Assembly: GCF_019968905.1 (NCBI RefSeq) | Contig: NZ_CP079946.1 | Location: 6,421,356 to 6,485,355, forward strand | Length of the DNA stretch: 64,000 nucleotides | Origin: Corallococcus sp. EGB | GTDB taxonomy: Bacteria; Myxococcota; Myxococcia; Myxococcales; Myxococcaceae | Reading direction: 5' to 3' | In this document: in pieces, positions 1,415-9,837 of the stretch | Numbering within the stretch: position 1 is the stretch's first letter | Layout of the letters: the number at the start of each line of letters is the position of its first letter | Made by a program: the position numbers and the translations under genes | Notes under the pieces: generated by a model | The model's input: only the letters and a program-made list of their open reading frames with translations | Databases searched by the model: none | Told to the model about the DNA's origin: nothing

Positions 1415-3127
1415 GTGTTCATCGATTTCGAAGGCATTGACGGCAGCGGCAAGACGACGCTGTCCAACCTGCTCGCGTCCCGGCTGAAGCGGCTGGGCTA
1501 CAAGGTCGCGCACGCACGCGAGGGGGGCGAGCTGCAGTCGCCCACCGCGCGGCGCATCCGCGAGCTGACGCGCGACGCGAAGCTGTTGGAGATGAGTCCA
1601 CGCGCTGAGTTCTTCCTGAACCTGGCCCGCGACGCGCAGCAGTTGGAGGAGGTCATCGCGCCCGCGCTGAAGCGGGGCGAGGTGTGCATCACCGACCGGT
1701 ATCTGTACTCGCAGCTCGCGCTGACGGGCGGTGGGCGGGGCCTGAAGGAGGCGCAGCTGTTGCCCGCGTGCGAGCTGGCGTCGCAGGGGCTGTGGCCGGA
1801 CCTGGTCATCCTGGTGGACGTGGACCCGGATCTCGCGCGGCTGCGCAAGCGGCTGGGCAAGGTGCAGAGCGGCAAGGTGAACGACGCGGACAGCCGCAAG
1901 GGCCTCGTCGGCGCGGGGCTGGCGGTGCGCGTGCGTGAGGCGTTCCTGGCGCAGGCCCGGAAGGATCCGGCGCGGTGGATCATCCTGGAGAACAATGATC
2001 AGCCGCTGCGAGTGCTGGAGCAGCGCCTGGTGGAGGCCGTGGTGGCGCGGCTGGAGGGCCGCGAGCAGCCGGTGCAGCGGCTGGTCCCCGCCCCTCCCCC
2101 GCCGATGCCGGGCGTGGCGTCGGTGGACGACGTGGAGGAGCGGTTCTTCCGGGCGGTGGACGGCCTGGAGGCGCGCGAGCCGCAGCTGGCGGCGTGGCTG
2201 CTCAACGGCATTCCGGGGCTGCCCGCGCACCAGCGCCGGGTGGCGTACGCGGAGCGGTTGCCGGGGCTGGTCGCTCGCAGCCTGAATGGACTGGATGACG
2301 ACACGTCGTGGACGCTGCGCGAGGTGCTGGCGCCAAGTGTGCCGGTGGACGTGGCGGAGGGTCTGGGGTTCGTGACGTCGCCGCGCTCGCACGCGCTGCG
2401 GCAGCGGCTGTACGCCCCGGCGCCGGCGGCGGTGCTGGAGGGGCTCAAGCGCCAGGACTCGCCGGAAGCGTGGGCGCTGCGCGAGCGCGGCGTGAGGGAC
2501 GGGCACCTGGCGGCGGTGCTGCTGGGCCTGGCCGGCGTGGACGGCGAGGAGTCCTGGGTGCTCCGCGAGGCGGGCATGCAGCGCAAGCTGTACACGGAGG
2601 TGGCGCGCAGCCTGGGCGGCCTGACCACGGAGCGCGCGGAGGCCCTGCGCGAGGCGCTGATTCCGCACGACCGGCTGGCGGTGCTGAAGAGCACCACGGG
2701 GCTGGAGACGCCGGTGGCGGTGGGGTTGCGCGAGCAACTGGAGAAGGGAGCGCTGAAGCTGGTGCTGCGCTCGCTGACGGGCGTGGACACGCCGCGGGCC
2801 TGGGCGATGCGCGAGCGGGGTGTGCAGTCCACCAAGGAGGCGTTGGACTCCGTGGACGGGATGGACTCGCCGCGCGCGTGGAAGCTGCGGGCCTCCGCGG
2901 CGCGCCGGTGGCCGGCGACGGTGGTGTCGTCGATGAGGGGGCTGCCGCTGGTGGCGGAGACGCGGGCGCTGCTGGACCGCATCCTGGAGGAGCAGCCCGG
3001 GAAGCTGCCGGTGCTGCGCAACGCGTACGCGGTGGTGGCGCACGCCCGGGCGCTGGAGCACGCGCAGCGGCCGGCGCGGGCCCTGGCGGAGATGCTGAGC
3101 GTGGACGCCGGGCGGCAGGAGGCATGA
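1415..3127 (+). CDS. Thymidylate-kinase-like P-loop kinase fused to a helical-repeat domain
   Basis: Residues 1 to about 212 resemble dTMP kinase. Walker A is GIDGSGKT at 7-14, the DRY motif is at 94-96 (ITDRYLYSQLAL), and the hydrophobic strand LVILVDVDPDLA precedes an Arg/Lys-rich lid (RLRKRLG). A proline-rich linker (PAPPPPMPG) follows. Residues from about 240 to 560 are not part of any normal dTMP kinase. They form about nine degenerate units of roughly 30-40 residues with the pattern GLD..xAWxLRE...., probably HEAT/ARM-like helical pairs. Ordinary dTMP kinases are about 210 residues long, so this is more than twice that. The start is GTG, six bases after the VTC stop. In this operon the substrate may be a nucleotide or phosphate compound other than dTMP. 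The kinase fold is clear, the substrate is not. Confidence 0.75.
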   Translation: MFIDFEGIDGSGKTTLSNLLASRLKRLGYKVAHAREGGELQSPTARRIRELTRDAKLLEMSPRAEFFLNLARDAQQLEEVIAPALKRGEVCITDRYLYSQLALTGGGRGLKEAQLLPACELASQGLWPDLVILVDVDPDLARLRKRLGKVQSGKVNDADSRKGLVGAGLAVRVREAFLAQARKDPARWIILENNDQPLRVLEQRLVEAVVARLEGREQPVQRLVPAPPPPMPGVASVDDVEERFFRAVDGLEAREPQLAAWLLNGIPGLPAHQRRVAYAERLPGLVARSLNGLDDDTSWTLREVLAPSVPVDVAEGLGFVTSPRSHALRQRLYAPAPAAVLEGLKRQDSPEAWALRERGVRDGHLAAVLLGLAGVDGEESWVLREAGMQRKLYTEVARSLGGLTTERAEALREALIPHDRLAVLKSTTGLETPVAVGLREQLEKGALKLVLRSLTGVDTPRAWAMRERGVQSTKEALDSVDGMDSPRAWKLRASAARRWPATVVSSMRGLPLVAETRALLDRILEEQPGKLPVLRNAYAVVAHARALEHAQRPARALAEMLSVDAGRQEA

Positions 3128-3843
3128 CGTCCATGGAGGGTCCATTCGGAGCGTTGTTCCAGGACGTGGAGCAGGAGCTGTCGGCCCTGTCGATGGGGTC
3201 CATCCTCCCCCGGCTGGTGGCGGCGGCGCTGATTGGCGCGCTGTTGTCGTCGCGGCCGTGGCGGATGTTGACGGGCAAGCCGCTGCCGAAGGTGGAGATG
3301 GTGCAGGCGCAGATCCTGCTCTGCGCGGCGGCGGCGGTGATTACGGCGGTGATTGGCAACAGCGTGGCGAAGGCGTTCGGGCTGGTGGGCCTGGGCGGGT
3401 TCGTGCGGTTCCGCTCGGGGCTGAAGGACCCGAGGGACGCGGCCATCCTGTTCCTGGTGATTGGCCTGGGCATGGCGTGTGGCCACGGGAACCTGGTGGT
3501 GGCGCTCGTGGGCACGGGGTTCGTGGCGACGCTGCTCTTCTTGCTGGACCTGTTCGAGAAGAAGGCCATGGCGACGAAGGACGCGAAGCAGCGGCTGGTG
3601 GTGTCCGCGCAGGCGGACGACCTGGTGTGCGCGGAGGCCACGCTGAGGGCGGCGCTGGGGGAGCGCAACGTGCTGGTGAAGAGCTGCGCGATGGACTTCT
3701 CCGCGCGGCGGGTGGAGCTGGAAGTGGAGGAGCCGGAGCCTGGAAGCCTGGCGGCGGCATTGGGACGGACGGAAGGGGCGCCCTTGCGGGGCCTGCGGTG
3801 GACGGCGGTGAGCGCGAAGGGCGCGCGGGAGGAGCTGGTATGA
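3124..3843 (+). CDS. DUF4956 family membrane protein
   Basis: The 239-residue protein starts at an ATG overlapping the kinase stop as ATGA. It has four predicted membrane segments in its first 140 residues: LPRLVAAALIGALLSS, a second starting AQILLCAAAAVITAVIG, AAILFLVIGLGMACG, and LVVALVGTGFVATLLFLLDLF. Between segments 2 and 3 is the family signature VRFRSGLKDPRDAA. The C-terminal 90 residues are soluble and mixed alpha/beta. This layout matches DUF4956, a family of unknown activity that frequently lies beside VTC-domain proteins. I infer an inner-membrane partner of the polyphosphate polymerase, perhaps for export or localisation. Coupling to the genes on both sides by ATGA overlaps implies equal expression. 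Confidence 0.8.
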   Translation: MTSMEGPFGALFQDVEQELSALSMGSILPRLVAAALIGALLSSRPWRMLTGKPLPKVEMVQAQILLCAAAAVITAVIGNSVAKAFGLVGLGGFVRFRSGLKDPRDAAILFLVIGLGMACGHGNLVVALVGTGFVATLLFLLDLFEKKAMATKDAKQRLVVSAQADDLVCAEATLRAALGERNVLVKSCAMDFSARRVELEVEEPEPGSLAAALGRTEGAPLRGLRWTAVSAKGAREELV

Positions 3844-4649
3844 AGTTCAGGAAGCTGGCGGTGCTGTTCGCGGCATGCGGGGCGCTCGCCGCCTGTGGGG
3901 GTGGCGGAGGCAGTCTGCCCAAGGGGAATGATCCGGGCGCGCCCACGACGAATCCGGACGGTTCAGTGGACCTGCCTGGCAACGCGGTGGACCCCGACAA
4001 GGGCGGCGGCACGAAGCCGGATCAACAGGCGGAGATGACGACGCTCTGGCCGCTGACCACGGGCTCCACGTGGACCTACCGCATCACCGACGACGTGGAA
4101 GGCGTCTTCAACAAGGTGGTGACGGTGCAGGGCCCGGAGACGGTGCCGGGCACGACGATGTCCGCGGTGAAGGTGCACAGCCGGCAGGACCGCACGAAGT
4201 CCGGCACGGTCTACGAAGAGAACTCCTGGCAGTTGGAGCTGACCAACGGGCTGGTGGTGCGCCTGCGCGAGGAGGACATCCTGGACGGGCTGCCCTCGAA
4301 GGCGACGACCTGGTCCCCGGCGATGATGAAGTCCCTGGCGACGATGCCGGCCTCCGTGCCCTGGGAGCACCAGGACCAGGTGCGGGAGCTGATCACCTAC
4401 GCGGCGGGCGGAACGGAGGGGAAGGACCCGAAGTACGTCTGGAAGGTGCTGGAGAAGGACGTCACGGTGACGACGCCCGCGGGCACGTTCACCAATGCCA
4501 TCAAGGTCCTGCGCGACAAGCTGAAAAAGAACGGCGAGGTGAAGGAGGAGAAGTCACGCACCTACTGGCTGGTTCCCGGCGTGGGCAAGGTCCGCGAGGA
4601 GGGCGAACGGCTGGAGGAGCTGCTGTCCTACGACGTGAAGAAGTCGTAG
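3840..4649 (+). CDS. Secreted lipoprotein of unknown function
   Basis: The 269-residue protein begins with a lipoprotein signal: basic MKFRK, a hydrophobic stretch and lipobox LAAC with Cys at residue 19. A Gly run follows, then a Pro/Asp/Gly-rich linker to about residue 60. The globular part (about 65-265) is rich in beta strands and contains TTGSTWTYRI near its start and GTFTNAIKVL and YWLVPGVGKVREE near its end. This resembles lipoproteins with a repeated strand core that read as 'W.Y' and 'G.GxV' motifs, but I cannot name a family with certainty. It is the last gene of the operon, overlapping the DUF4956 stop as ATGA, and a terminator follows. Expected location: periplasm or outer membrane. 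Confidence 0.75.
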   Translation: MKFRKLAVLFAACGALAACGGGGGSLPKGNDPGAPTTNPDGSVDLPGNAVDPDKGGGTKPDQQAEMTTLWPLTTGSTWTYRITDDVEGVFNKVVTVQGPETVPGTTMSAVKVHSRQDRTKSGTVYEENSWQLELTNGLVVRLREEDILDGLPSKATTWSPAMMKSLATMPASVPWEHQDQVRELITYAAGGTEGKDPKYVWKVLEKDVTVTTPAGTFTNAIKVLRDKLKKNGEVKEEKSRTYWLVPGVGKVREEGERLEELLSYDVKKS

Positions 4650-4675
4650 GTCGCTGATTCATCTGGATGGGATTG

Positions 4676-4722
4676 AGGCCCGGGTTGGCGCGAGGGACGC
4701 GCTGGCCCGGGCCTTCGTTTTC
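4676..4722 (+). terminator. Rho-independent-like terminator of the porin-VTC operon
   Basis: AGGCCCGGG (4676-4684) pairs with CCCGGGCCT (4706-4714) around a partly pairing GC-rich loop. It is followed by a T-rich TCGTTTTC tract. It lies 27 bases after the lipoprotein stop and marks the boundary to the AT-richer toxin debris on the right. Confidence 0.75.
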
Positions 4723-4790
4723 GACTCTAGAAAGCGCGATCGATCAACATAGCAAATCTCAACCAACCCCACCGAAACAGCGTCACTACA

Positions 4791-5195
4791 TCAATCAACA
4801 AGCCCCTCATAAATAGGCCCCACCCAATATTCACCAGACACCAGCACCTCTCCCCTGCGCGCAAGACGCCTCGTATCCTCCTTCATCAAAAACACAACCT
4901 TCGGAACACAAGCCACAAGAATTCCGTACGCGATCGCAAACCCCCCCCCCATTAGGCTCTTGGCCGTCTCACTCATCCCTGAATCCAACTGTTTCACGAG
5001 CGCCAAGACAAATGCCCCAAGCAGCACAGGATCAATCTCCACTTCATCAGAAACAATCTCACCAACACCACTCTCAATCCCCACCGCCTCCTCCAAGGCT
5101 CGCACCTGAGAAACAAAAAGCCGAGCCATTCTAAGCGATGGATTCCACACCACACTATCTTGCCACTGGAAAAGCACCCCCACATCTACCTCCAT
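4791..5195 (-). CDS. Putative immunity protein of orphan RHS tip 1
   Basis: The 134-residue protein starts at ATG 5195, overlapping the end of the RHS tip gene by 10 bases. That tail-to-head overlap is the usual arrangement of a polymorphic toxin and its immunity gene. The sequence is acidic, with a glycine/hydrophobic centre (GGGFAIAYGILVACVPKVVF) that could be buried or membrane-associated. I do not recognise a named immunity family. Base composition is much lower in GC than the operon to the left, as is common for horizontally exchanged toxin cassettes. A run of ten G (coding strand) lies inside the gene. Function is inferred purely from position. Confidence 0.6.
   Translation of the reverse strand: MEVDVGVLFQWQDSVVWNPSLRMARLFVSQVRALEEAVGIESGVGEIVSDEVEIDPVLLGAFVLALVKQLDSGMSETAKSLMGGGFAIAYGILVACVPKVVFLMKEDTRRLARRGEVLVSGEYWVGPIYEGLVD
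4941..4950 (-). repeat. Homopolymer G10 tract inside the immunity gene
   Basis: Ten consecutive C on the + strand (ten G on the coding strand) encode Met-Gly-Gly-Gly in the middle of the putative immunity gene. At the present length the frame is open. Gain or loss of one base would truncate the protein. Confidence 0.9.
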
Positions 5196-6781
5196 CGAAT
5201 CCGTATTTCGACATTTGGATACTGTTCCCGAAGAACATCTACAGCAGCCTCGATAGCACTCCTAAACTCAGGCGTAACCGGATCTGTAAAATCCAACCCC
5301 ACAGGAGCGTTTTCATATCCCGGCAATTGCCGTCTTGCCATGATATATTTCTCAATTTTCCCGTCCTCTCCAAAGAGGTGTCGTTCTGCCCACGCAGCAG
5401 GGTCTGGCTCCATGCCACCACCAGCCGACTTCCTCTCCCAAAGGACTCCCTCCTCAATACGATCAATATCAGTGATTCTGTTTCCGGTAGCAGGATCATA
5501 CACATCATGATCAACCGCCCCCTCATAGGGTGGCTGGGTTACGTTCTTAGGCTTTTTAGGTGGGAGATTTTTTGCCTTGTGTTCGGCAGCTCCCTTCCAC
5601 GGCCTATTCTTACCCATCTGCAGGGGCTGAGAAGAATCCGCCAGAGTTTCTACGCCCTCAAGCGTGCTCAGGGAGCCCTTGGGAATACCTGCGTGAACCA
5701 AAGGTGGGCCAGGATGATTGAAGTTCGCAAGATTCGCAAGCGCACGTTCAATACTAACCCTCGCACCATGAGTTTCCAGGAGAGAATCAACGACTGTCAG
5801 CGCCGTTGCGGGCAGTTTTTTGCCACACGCACGAGTAAACTCCTCCGTCAGAACGCTAGTCTCAGCCAAATAGCAGTAACTAGCCGTCTCCTTGAAGTCG
5901 TCACCGGTGGTGACAATTGACATCTTAAACGCATATTCCGGCCCATTCGACAGATAATCCAACGTGGCAAGCCTGGCCCACTCTTGCTCAATCCTACGTT
6001 TGCGCGACCTGTCGTAACTCCAGTCCTCGTTAAAAGCACCTAGAACAACAGTCTCGTCAGAGAAGAGTGTAGTCAGGTCTTTAACCAGCGGTCGAGAAAG
6101 CCACATCGAGCCATTGACAAAACCAACAGCCGCCCCGTTAATACTTTCACCCATCGCACTCCAGCAACTTCCCCTCCAAATACATGTTCCTTGAGGGTCG
6201 GTATATCTGAGCGGATTCCCGCGAACATAGAGCCAAGGACCCAACTCATTTGGAGTAGCCAGGAAAGCGTCCGCCGCAGTCGGATCTTGCGACAAGAACC
6301 TTCCTGTCACCGAGTCATACCAACGCTGCTGGGCGTACGTCAGTCCCGCTTCCGCATCCCACGCGTGCCCCGTGTATCCGAGGCTGGACTGAGTGGATGC
6401 TGGAGCCGTATCGTCGCGATAATTACCCCAGGCGTCATACCGGTGCTGGCTACTTGCGTCGGCCGCGTAGCGCCCCACCGCACTGCCCAAACCATCATGA
6501 GCAATCCGTTCGGCGCCCACCGCTACTGCCATCCCTCCGCCGTGAGTGTAGAGCAGCGCGGGCTGTCCTGCCAAGCGTTCCTCCACCAGCGCGCCACCGG
6601 CCCATAGGTATGTCGACGTCCGAGCACCCGTCGTCCTCTCCACGCGCAGGCCGTCCCAGCCGTACTGGTATTGCGTCGTGACGCTGCCGCCCTCCCCTTG
6701 CATTTCGGGAACGACCGTCACCTTCGTCAGACGCCCTGCCGCATCCCAGCCGTAGGTCTTGCCGCCGCTTCCGCGCTGCTC
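5186..6781 (-). pseudogene. Orphan RHS C-terminal module (tip 1) with PD-(D/E)xK-like nuclease toxin
   Basis: The frame carries the last part of an RHS core and a unique tip. Its 5' end is cut by IS66 copy A at 6781/6782. The core part (about 6200-6781) contains the YD-type repeats (GKTYGWDAAGRL, YQYGWDGLRVERT), GLGSAVGRY, and the closing block GRFLSQDP...RGNPLRYTDPQG. It closely matches 21450-22030 of the full-length RHS gene in this window. The tip (about 340 residues) ends in a domain with ITDIDRIEEG and LWERKS. The Asp plus ExK (codons at 5429-5437) resemble the active site of restriction-endonuclease-fold toxins. There is no start codon, promoter or signal peptide left, so it is probably silent unless recombined onto a full RHS gene. 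The overlapping downstream gene is its likely immunity gene. Confidence 0.8.
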
Positions 6782-6851
6782 GTAACCGTCCGGCCAACGA
6801 CGTGCCGTGAGGGATTGCTGGGGTAGCGGGGCGCGGCGGACGCTGCTGGGC

Positions 6852-7166
6852 ATGGCGAAGCAGGTGGAGAAGCCGGAGTGGGCGCGCATCGCGGAGGCCT
6901 TTGAGGCGAGCGGGCAGACGCAGCGGGAGTTCGCGTTGGCGCACGGCATGCGGCTGAGCACGTTGCAGTCGTGGGTGTACCGGCATCGGCGGTCCGCTCC
7001 ATCGCGAGCGGAAGCCGTGCGGCTGTTGCCGGTGCGAGTGGCGAGCGCCCCCGCGGCGCCGGAGTCCCTGCTGGAGGTGGTGGCCACGAGCGGAGCGCGG
7101 GTGCGATTCGCGGTAGGCACCGACGTGGCGTACGTGGCCCGGCTCGTCGCCGCGTTGGGGCGCTGA
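6852..7166 (+). CDS. tnpA: IS66 OrfA (TnpA) of copy A
   Basis: The 104-residue basic protein has a helix-turn-helix (WARIAEAFEASGQTQREFALAHGMRLSTLQSWVYRHRR). It is the small DNA-binding OrfA product that accompanies IS66 transposases. It ends four bases before tnpB. Copy A has one extra codon compared with copies B and C (residues near LLEVV). The start ATG at 6852 is preferred over the upstream in-frame TTG/GTG codons that would read through the inverted repeat. Confidence 0.8.
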   Translation: MAKQVEKPEWARIAEAFEASGQTQREFALAHGMRLSTLQSWVYRHRRSAPSRAEAVRLLPVRVASAPAAPESLLEVVATSGARVRFAVGTDVAYVARLVAALGR

Positions 7167-7170
7167 AGCG

Positions 7171-7536
7171 ATGTTCGCCCTGCCTGCGTCGGTGCGCGTG
7201 GTGCTGGCGGTGGAGCCGGTGGACATGCGCAAGTCGATTGACGGCCTCATGGCGCTGGTGCGCGGCGCATGGGGCGAGGACGTCTACTCGGGGCACCTCT
7301 TCGCCTTCGTCTCCAGGCGGGGCGACCGCATCAAGGTACTGACGTGGAGCCGGGGCGGCTTCGTGCTGCTGTACAAGCGGCTGGAGACGGGCCACTTCCG
7401 GCTGCCGCCGGTGGACGCGGGCGCGCAGGCGGTGACGCTGGACGCCACGCAGTTGGCCATGCTGCTGGACGGCATCGACGTGGCCCAGGTGAGGCGCCAG
7501 CCCGCCTGGACGCCTCCCGGGCGTCCGGGCACCTGA
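7171..7536 (+). CDS. tnpB: IS66 accessory protein TnpB (Orf2), copy A
   Basis: The 121-residue protein has the canonical IS66 Orf2 features: a start at VVLAVEPVDMRKSIDGL, then the HLFAFVSRRGDRIKVLTWSRGGFVLLYKRLE core. TnpB is required with TnpA and TnpC for IS66 transposition, but its biochemical role is not defined. It lies between tnpA (four bases) and tnpC (46 bases). Val and His replace the Met and Arg seen at two positions in copies B and C, so copy A is a diverged, older copy. Confidence 0.9.
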   Translation: MFALPASVRVVLAVEPVDMRKSIDGLMALVRGAWGEDVYSGHLFAFVSRRGDRIKVLTWSRGGFVLLYKRLETGHFRLPPVDAGAQAVTLDATQLAMLLDGIDVAQVRRQPAWTPPGRPGT

Positions 7537-8087
7537 CGTGCCCGGCCCGGGACACGGCGCGGCGGCGGGGTGTTGAAGCCCGGTGCCCCGTGAGCTTCCC
7601 CAAGACCACTTCTGCCCCTGGCGCGAAGAGGCCGAAGAGCTCAAGGAGCGCCTGACGTCGCTGGAGGCGAAGATGGCGGCGCTGGAGCGTCACGTCTTCG
7701 GCAGGAGGACGGAGAAGCTGCCGACGGTGGCCGCCGAGTTGCGTGGAGCCACGGACTCGACGGCGGCCCAGGCCGAGGCCGCGAAAGAGAAGCGGCAAGA
7801 GAGAGCCGCCCGCAAGGCCGAGGGGGCCCCGGCGCGGGAGATTCGCCACGCGGTGCCGGCCGAGGAGCGCCACTGCCCGGCGTGCGGCAGCGAGGACTTG
7901 AGGCCCCTGGGCAAGGGCAAAACCTCGGTGGTGTACGAGTACGTGCCCGCCCGCTTCGAGAAGCAGGTGCACGTGCAGGAGGTGCTGGCGTGCGCGTGCG
8001 GCCGGGGCGTCGTCACCGCCCCGCCTCCGGCCCGGGTGGTGGACAGGGGCGAGTACGGCCCGGGCTTTCTCTCCCACGTGGTGACGT

Positions 8088-8094
8088 CCAAGTG
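8088..8094. repeat. 7-bp target-site duplication of the IS21 element
   Basis: CCAAGTG occurs immediately left of the IS21 element (8088-8094) and again immediately right of it (10807-10813). Intact IS66 copies have it once. This defines the insertion point inside tnpC. Confidence 0.9.
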
Positions 8095-8100
8095 TGTCGT

Positions 8101-8190
8101 AGCTCGGCGTAACAGGTCCTCCGGAGTTCGGCGAACCCGGTCGGGGTGAGTTCGGCCAAACCGGTCCGCACCGGTTCGGCCAACCCGGTC
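8101..8190 (+). repeat. IS21 left-end repeat array (four 18-mers)
   Basis: Four copies of the motif GTTCGGCNAACCCGGTC lie at 8101-8118, 8125-8142, 8149-8166 and 8173-8190. The spacing from start to start is a regular 24 bp. The outermost is the most diverged. They are presumed IstA binding sites. Confidence 0.88.
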
Positions 8191-8244
8191 CCCCGGGCGT
8201 CCCGCCGACAGGCCACGCTGGCTTCCCTTGGAAAGGGAAGTGGC

Positions 8245-9837
8245 GTGAGTAACCGGAGAGTGGAGATGGACCGGCTGCAGGAATTGGTGCGGTTGCACCG
8301 CCTGGGCACGCCCGCGCGGCAAGTGGCCCGGGTGCTGCGCATGGGCGTGGACGTGGAGCGCAGCTATCGGCGCGTGCTGGAAGCGGCGGGGCTGCTGCGA
8401 GGCGACGTGCAGGTGCTGCCCGAGCTCGAGGTGCTCAAGGCCGCAGTGCTGGCGGGGCGGCCCGCGGCCCCGCCAGCGCCCCAGCAAACGTCCAGCCTGG
8501 AGGCACACCGCGCCCAGGTGGAAGCGTGGGTGGCGAAGGGACTGCAGCCACAGGCCATCTTCACCCGGTTGCAGATGGAGGCGGGGGTGCCGGCAGGCAG
8601 CCTCTCGGCCGTCAAGCGCCTGGTGGGCAGCGTGCGTCGGGCCCAGGGCGTGAGTGAAGAGGACGTCGCCATCCCCGTGGAGACGGCCCCAGGCGAAGTC
8701 GCGCAGGTGGACTTCGGTGAAGTGGGCCGATTGTACGACGCAGACGCAGGGACTCTGCGTCGCGCCTGGGTGTTCGTCAGGGTGCTCGGCTACAGCCGCC
8801 ACCTCTTCGCCACGGTGGTTTTCGACCAGCGTGTGGAGACGTGGCTGCGCTGCCACGAGGCCGCCTTCACGTACTTTGGCGGGGTGCCCCGGTGCGTGGT
8901 GCCCGACAACCTCAAGGCGGCGGTGGTGCGCGCTGCTTTCGGGGTGGACGGGGAGCGGGCCCTGCAGCGCAGCTACCGCGCGCTGGCGCGCCACTACGGC
9001 TTCATCGTCGACCCGGCCCCTCCTCGCGCCCCTGAGAAGAAAGGCAAGGTGGAGGCGGGCGTGCGCTACGTGAAAGGCAACTTCTTCGCCGGGAGGGCCG
9101 GAGAGGACGCGCGCGAGTGCGAGGCCGCACTGCAGCGCTGGCTGCGGGACGTGGCGTCGGTGCGCGTGCACGGCACGACGGGGCGTCAGCCGCGCCTCCT
9201 CTTCCAGCAGGCCGAAGCCGAGGCGCTGCGTGCGCTACCGGCGGCCGCGTGGGCGCCCGAGGTGTGGCACGAGGCCCGCGTGCACCGCGACGCCCACGTC
9301 ATGTACGGCCGACGGCTGTACTCAGTGCCGTGGCGTCTCATCGGCCAGCGCGTCTGGCTGTGCGTCACGGCCTACGACGTGCGCGTGTACGCCCAGGACG
9401 AGCGCGTGGCCACCCACCCGCTGCGCGGCGAGGGCCACCGCAGCACCGTGGAGTCCCACCTGCCCGAGGCGCGCGCGGCCCTGCGCCACCGCAGCCGCGG
9501 CCACTGGGAGACACGGGCGGCCCGGCTGGGCCCGCACACCGAGGCGTACGTGCGCGCCGTCTTCGACGCCGATGACGTCCTCAGCCAGCTGCGCTGCGTG
9601 CAGGCCATGGTGGTGCACCTGGAGGGCTTCCCGCGCGAGCGGGCCGAGGCCGCGTGCCGCCGGGCGCTGCACTTCGGCAACCTGCGCTACCAGGGCCTCA
9701 AGGACATCCTGCGCCGCGGCCTGGACTTGCAGCCGTTGCCCCAGGACGGGCACCTGGCCCTCGCCACGCCCGCCGCCACGGCTGCGTCGCCGGCGCCCCG
9801 CTACGCGCGCGACGTGCGCACGCTGCTGCTGCGTTAG
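8245..9837 (+). CDS. istA: IS21 transposase IstA
   Basis: The 530-residue transposase has an N-terminal helix-turn-helix region (LVRLHRLGTPARQVARVLRMG) and the retroviral integrase-type DDE core: D156 in AQVDFGE, D221 in VPDNLK and E270 in KGKVEAGVRYVKG. A C-terminal SPWRLIG-type beta barrel segment (YSVPWRLIG) follows. IstA cuts and joins the element ends with the help of IstB. I prefer GTG 8245 because GGAAAGGGAAG lies just upstream; ATG 8266 is an alternative. The frame is open back to 8146, but that would translate the terminal repeats. Confidence 0.93.
   Translation: MSNRRVEMDRLQELVRLHRLGTPARQVARVLRMGVDVERSYRRVLEAAGLLRGDVQVLPELEVLKAAVLAGRPAAPPAPQQTSSLEAHRAQVEAWVAKGLQPQAIFTRLQMEAGVPAGSLSAVKRLVGSVRRAQGVSEEDVAIPVETAPGEVAQVDFGEVGRLYDADAGTLRRAWVFVRVLGYSRHLFATVVFDQRVETWLRCHEAAFTYFGGVPRCVVPDNLKAAVVRAAFGVDGERALQRSYRALARHYGFIVDPAPPRAPEKKGKVEAGVRYVKGNFFAGRAGEDARECEAALQRWLRDVASVRVHGTTGRQPRLLFQQAEAEALRALPAAAWAPEVWHEARVHRDAHVMYGRRLYSVPWRLIGQRVWLCVTAYDVRVYAQDERVATHPLRGEGHRSTVESHLPEARAALRHRSRGHWETRAARLGPHTEAYVRAVFDADDVLSQLRCVQAMVVHLEGFPRERAEAACRRALHFGNLRYQGLKDILRRGLDLQPLPQDGHLALATPAATAASPAPRYARDVRTLLLR

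Follow-up and report, generated by a model that had tools for sequence, protein, structure and literature searches.

A thymidylate-kinase-fold protein with a predicted ring-like repeat tail, encoded with VTC-domain and DUF4956 genes in Myxococcota and Planctomycetota

A kinase gene among phosphate genes

Why should a protein with the fold of thymidylate kinase (TMK) be encoded between a polyphosphate polymerase and a membrane protein, and what purpose could its long repeat tail serve? The question arises at the beginning of a 64,000-nucleotide stretch of the 9.43 Mb genome of Corallococcus sp. EGB (the window, meaning this whole stretch). An ORF with a GTG start on the forward strand (positions 1415 to 3127) codes there for a 570-residue protein, the tail kinase, which is 87-95% identical to that of named Corallococcus loci.

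The gene belongs to a tightly packed operon on the forward strand in the order porin, VTC, tail kinase, DUF4956 and lipoprotein. ATGA overlaps join porin to VTC, kinase to DUF4956 and DUF4956 to the lipoprotein gene, while 6 bases separate VTC from the kinase. The conserved porin gene that opens the operon extends about 774 bases beyond the left edge of the window, which holds its 3' part (1-674). This copy gives no Pfam match of its own; it matches the porin of a paralogous operon (E 7.6e-12), itself assigned to PF07396, phosphate-selective porin O/P (2.2e-9). The initial annotation had placed the kinase gene between VTC and DUF4956, and Pfam bears this out with PF09359 at 671-1408 (E 7.2e-14) and PF16316 at 3124-3843 (E 5.8e-12). 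The former is a VTC-domain polyphosphate polymerase of 245 amino acids whose family profile matches yeast Vtc4 (3g3q) at 2.6e-15. Its tunnel columns R66, K87, K96, R98, R135, R145, D149, E186, K188 and S210-K211-F212 are invariant in 14 relatives. The Vtc4 match and these basic and acidic columns make it plausibly an active polymerase. The DUF4956 protein (239 amino acids) has hydrophobic segments at about residues 19-43, 55-94 and 106-146 and a soluble C-terminus; its N-terminal membrane part is weakly similar to MgtC. The lipoprotein gene (3840-4649), last of the operon in most Myxococcaceae, codes for a lipobox-like N-terminus and gives a weak PF21347 match below the cut-off. Taken together, these genes suggest a chemistry of phosphate polymers at the envelope.

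Upstream of the porin gene, outside the window, lies a divergently transcribed Ser/Thr protein kinase gene conserved in several Myxococcaceae genera (positions 2535-4763 of locus L068). Beyond the operon in the window, a fragment of an Rhs-repeat gene on the minus strand (5186-9837) looks truncated and apparently abuts transposase-like ORFs, IS66-like and IS21-like as judged by eye.

Kinase site and thymine pocket

Residues 1-213 (1415-2053, forward strand) form a P-loop domain of thymidylate kinase fold, assigned by Pfam and Foldseek. PF02223 (Thymidylate_kin) covers residues 5-192 with E 1.3e-26 and 93.9 bits against a cut-off of 27. TIGR00041, the NCBI equivalog model for dTMP kinase, scores 97.9 bits, above its cut-off of 83.25, and the best Foldseek matches of the domain are all TMKs, with target TM-scores of about 0.81-0.88. 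Tmk (PF02223, TIGR00041; PDB 3hjn, 5x7j, 2ccg) is thus the closest known protein by sequence and structure, and shares with the tail kinase the fold, the Walker A and DRY motifs, a REP-like Arg and the lid Arg. It differs in that the Phe, Arg, Ser/Asn, Tyr and Gln that read thymine are substituted in the tail kinase, that the lid Glu is replaced by Gly, and that the tail kinase carries a 330-residue tail and is encoded in a VTC operon. PADLOC gives weak matches to VakA, a TMK-fold kinase (E 4e-9); since VTC and DUF4956 have no PADLOC match, we take this to reflect the P-loop kinase fold that both share.

Residues were counted in 38 full-length relatives from Myxococcota and Planctomycetota, aligned with 8 reference or housekeeping TMKs; the numberings of different TMKs were matched by motif on the alignment. 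Walker A and DRY motifs, which the initial annotation had reported, are both present. Walker A reads GIDGSGKT (residues 7-14, 1433-1456; GIDGSGKTT in full), and its Lys, like the Asp-Arg of the DRY motif, is found in 38/38 relatives. D94-R95-Y96 leads into the pocket segment YLYSQLALT (1694-1726 for the whole), where TMKs have YxxSSxAYQ. The REP-motif Arg, the R48-equivalent and the lid Arg are each kept in 37 of the 38. The lid segment reads RKGLVG (residues 161-166, 1895-1912), and the Gly at the place of the TMK lid Glu is found in 36/38.

The side of the site that would face the base is different. In the complex of M. tuberculosis TMK with dTMP, Phe70 stacks on the base, Arg74 and Asn100 bond to it and Arg95 touches base and phosphate (PMC3619541); a thymine-like inhibitor of the S. 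aureus enzyme contacts Phe66, Arg70, Ser97, Gln101 and Arg48 (PMC10610096). The recognition set of stacking Phe, O4 Arg, Ser/Asn and the Gln after DR[Y] is not retained in the 38 tail kinases. The Arg that contacts thymine O4 is kept in 8/8 TMKs, and each of the 38 tail kinases has Asp or Glu in its place (D73 in the window protein, next to R72, which is specific to the tail family and present in 38/38). The pocket Gln, also kept in 8/8 TMKs, is Ser, Ala, Thr or Cys in 38/38, and the pocket Tyr is Leu, His or another residue in 38/38. The stacking Phe is replaced by Asn, Tyr, Gly or Leu (Tyr or Asn in 36/38; N69 here, 1619-1633 together with D73), a position that is indecisive when taken alone since 3 of the 8 TMKs have Tyr there too, the others Phe. 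Several base-pocket positions also vary within the family (A/Q/H/L, L/H, S/A).

With the thymine readers substituted, the tail kinase is probably not a dTMP kinase, judging from its residues, and the NCBI equivalog model then probably misnames the family. This pattern, with the Arg residues for the acceptor phosphate retained and the base readers lost, suggests a phosphate-bearing acceptor without thymine, although the altered pocket could still take a different nucleotide.

The relation to housekeeping enzymes leads to the same view. The 38 kinase domains form one clade with 100/100 support and a long stem, apart from housekeeping TMKs, in a tree that contains some long branches of uncertain exact position. 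The source genome has a separate tmk with intact thymine-pocket residues (L001, G000:C1:5576498-5577064), and a third PF02223 match (L003) that is deoxynucleoside-kinase-like by sequence and unrelated to the operon. The main tmk of Myxococcota has a Walker A of GAGTTT or GSGTTT, without the usual Lys, in 28/28 copies read (L001, L145-L173), with its thymine pocket intact. It might thus be argued that the tail kinase is an ordinary or secondary dTMP kinase, brought by chance into a phosphate operon and kept as a backup, as its equivalog score and all-TMK structural matches would allow. The Lys-less tmk occurs, however, also in genomes that have no tail kinase, so that no backup is needed and this role was rejected; with the thymine readers replaced in every one of the 38 proteins, we regard a dTMP kinase as very improbable.

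The repeat tail

The initial annotation had counted about nine repeat units fused behind the kinase, and nine helical repeats of 27 residues are confirmed at residues about 257-500 (2183-2914, forward strand). The period is exactly 27: residue identity at this lag is 0.213, against a maximum of 0.156 over all lags in 500 shuffles, and in seven divergent members, distant relatives included, no shuffle reaches the observed value. Each repeat has one near-invariant Arg (R275, R302, R329, R356, R384, R412, R439, R466 and R492), conserved in at least 37 of the 38 relatives and spaced by 26-28 residues. No acidic column of the tail makes a ladder matching these Arg in the 38 relatives. The Arg may face a surface or be structural, as in HEAT repeats.

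Structure prediction of the tail, proposed with the first reading of the sequence, gave a confident helical solenoid. The AlphaFold2 model of the full-length protein has a mean pLDDT of 83.5, most of the tail being above 90, and the tail modelled by itself reaches 93.9. With its caps, the alpha-solenoid spans residues 236-555 (2120-3079), and it is predicted to be ring-like. Pfam gives no significant match to the tail, and Foldseek none at E<=0.001. Its best structural likeness is the PC-repeat toroid of proteasome subunits Rpn1/Rpn2 (PDB 9e8o, 4ady; Z 15.8, rmsd 4.8, 314 of 322 residues aligned), though high Z values are common among helical repeats. Each of the top 38 structural rows is a 26S proteasome entry of this kind; the first unrelated row after them drops to Z 11.4, with an rmsd of 10.2. 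The likeness is structural only, with about 10% identity and no significant sequence or Foldseek match, and the PC repeats of Rpn1/Rpn2 are longer than 27 residues.

A tail that is the larger and confidently folded part of the protein raises the main rival to a catalytic role: a scaffold or nucleotide sensor without catalysis, in which the P-loop would act as an ATP/ADP switch and the ring would assemble VTC and DUF4956 and regulate them according to energy state. Variation at several base positions of the acceptor pocket is what would be expected if there were no small acceptor. Against this stands the near-invariance of the Walker Lys, Asp-Arg, R35, R49 and lid Arg in 38 divergent proteins. 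Three of these residues, R35, R49 and the lid R161, are lost only in the orphan locus L059 (7062-8723), the sole member with such losses, which retains the repeats and has neither VTC nor DUF4956 as neighbours. This pattern suggests that catalysis is selected, and the losses, a single case read from sequence, would fit a catalytic role coupled to the module. We consider the scaffold or sensor unlikely.

The VTC gene set and the proposed role

Full-length or near-full-length relatives of the tail kinase are present in 75 of 195 Myxococcota genomes, and about 15 full-length ones were found among 392 Planctomycetota genomes. A search of genome contigs for distant relatives gave 11 loci, and the broader picture comes from the wider genome search. 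A search for the same fusion beside VTC genes elsewhere, suggested in the initial annotation, finds a same-strand VTC gene upstream of the kinase in 36 of the 38 full-length loci, either adjacent or, in paralogous operons, with a porin gene intervening. The exceptions are the orphan L059 and L061, whose genome has a VTC-porin pair on another contig. DUF4956 and CotH genes are recurrent neighbours among the 38 loci. The usual order in Myxococcota is porin-VTC-kinase-DUF4956. Some Myxococcaceae have in addition a paralogous set, CotH-VTC-porin-kinase-DUF4956 (Pfam matches PF08757 at 3e-56, PF09359 at 2.7e-17 and PF07396 at 2.2e-9), and some Planctomycetota have VTC-kinase-DUF4956 followed by up to four tandem CotH genes (L123, L135, L137). 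CotH is found in the paralogous operons and in many Planctomycetota and several Myxococcota loci; it is absent beside the window operon, and the source genome has four CotH genes elsewhere.

The association extends to whole genomes. Of 59 relatives, 29 have a tail kinase, and in 26 of these a VTC gene is detectable by Pfam; among the 30 that lack the kinase, 2 have such a VTC gene (Fisher p 3e-11, not corrected for relatedness). Among the three tail-kinase genomes lacking a Pfam VTC, one (L058) has a VTC detected by the family profile, and in another the contig ends within the kinase. Distances between pairs of kinase domains correlate with the corresponding distances for the tail (r 0.93) and for VTC (r 0.92), the correlations being 0.90-0.93 overall and without correction for phylogeny. 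The tail kinase is thus encoded and inherited with VTC and DUF4956, a conclusion that is well supported. Such close linkage is unexpected for a housekeeping enzyme. It contradicts the case that the initial annotation had set against its own idea, a housekeeping tmk with dTMP activity and no VTC/DUF4956 link in other genomes, and the substituted pocket likewise tells against dTMP as substrate.

Given the loss of the thymine readers, the ring-like tail and the linkage to the VTC gene set, the tail kinase is probably no housekeeping enzyme but a component, so far undescribed, of a machine that handles phosphate. We favour, with moderate confidence, a dedicated cytosolic subunit of a VTC-DUF4956(-CotH/porin) module: a phosphotransferase that descends from thymidylate kinase and would be competent in catalysis, whose tail would dock it and whose product would feed VTC. 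From the site, with ATP-binding residues and acceptor-phosphate Arg kept and base readers lost, the kinase would pass a phosphoryl group from ATP on to an acceptor that bears phosphate and is not dTMP. Candidate acceptors are a small phosphorylated primer, pyrophosphate or a polyphosphate chain end, and a protein. The repeat Arg of the modelled ring could dock the kinase to VTC/DUF4956 or hold a phosphate-rich ligand, and the product could prime, feed or gate VTC at the membrane. We infer the phosphoryl transfer to a non-thymidine acceptor, the docking by the tail and the action on VTC.

The initial annotation had offered two possibilities for the kinase: interconversion of nucleotides at the expense of polyphosphate, or phosphorylation of another substrate, with the tail as a docking or substrate-recruiting arm. 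The proposal is partly supported, by the tie to VTC and DUF4956 in other genomes and by the pocket substitutions, which speak against dTMP; another substrate and a docking tail would fit the anatomy. The first half is the less likely one. An enzyme moving phosphate between VTC-made polyphosphate and nucleotides, like PPK2, would be well placed beside a polyphosphate polymerase, and the TMK and PPK2 folds are related. The tail kinase keeps, however, the TMK-type ATP site and has no conserved nucleobase pocket, and Pfam gives no PPK2 family match to it at E<=1, a search in which HMMER filters may drop very weak matches. We find this possibility improbable.

A bolder variant of the phosphotransferase reading, to which we give very little credence, makes kinase and ring the cytosolic part of a trans-envelope machine. 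The kinase would prime or cap the chain, the ring of nine Arg would guide the nascent polyanion from VTC into DUF4956, and the exported chain, instead of ATP, would serve exported CotH-type kinases outside the inner membrane.

Gene sets with the same families are known elsewhere. CotH-VTC(PPP)-DUF4956 accessory genes occur beside Gram-positive pel clusters (PMC7112168). In Streptococcus intermedius the set is SIR_1592-1594, where deletion of the MgtC/DUF4956-like or of the CotH gene altered Pel levels and aggregation, and the three-gene synteny was reported as not found outside Pel loci (PMC12345266). The clusters described here bring VTC, DUF4956 and CotH families together outside the Pel-locus setting and add the ring-tailed kinase. 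They differ from the pel set also in that the immediate neighbours read include no pel cluster, that Myxococcota have a porin and that some Planctomycetota carry several CotH genes in tandem. Compared with the yeast VTC complex, the VTC partner shows a match to Vtc4 along its length and conserves the tunnel columns, but it is a stand-alone soluble domain with a kinase partner, and DUF4956 replaces the VTC transmembrane domain as membrane partner.

While the TMK fold and the VTC-DUF4956-CotH gene set were already known, the kinase-solenoid fusion, the reversal of the base pocket and the tight linkage to VTC across two phyla, Myxococcota and Planctomycetota, are new. No account of the fusion was found in the open-access literature on DUF4956 together with thymidylate kinase, polyphosphate polymerase, CotH, or planctomycetes or myxobacteria. 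VTC-DUF4956-CotH clusters recur in bacteria, and the tail kinase adds to them a conserved fourth member, whose readable active site and distinctive tail provide a handle through which the chemistry of the module could be revealed. It is not essential to every VTC-DUF4956 module, since two genomes (G019 and G031) have the pair and lack the kinase. In G031 (L174, 6150-11850) the pair is flanked by HlyD-type and TolC-type (OEP) export genes and by a gene for an ATP-grasp-like PPDK_N protein whose N-terminus is lipoprotein-like, the same core with different partners.
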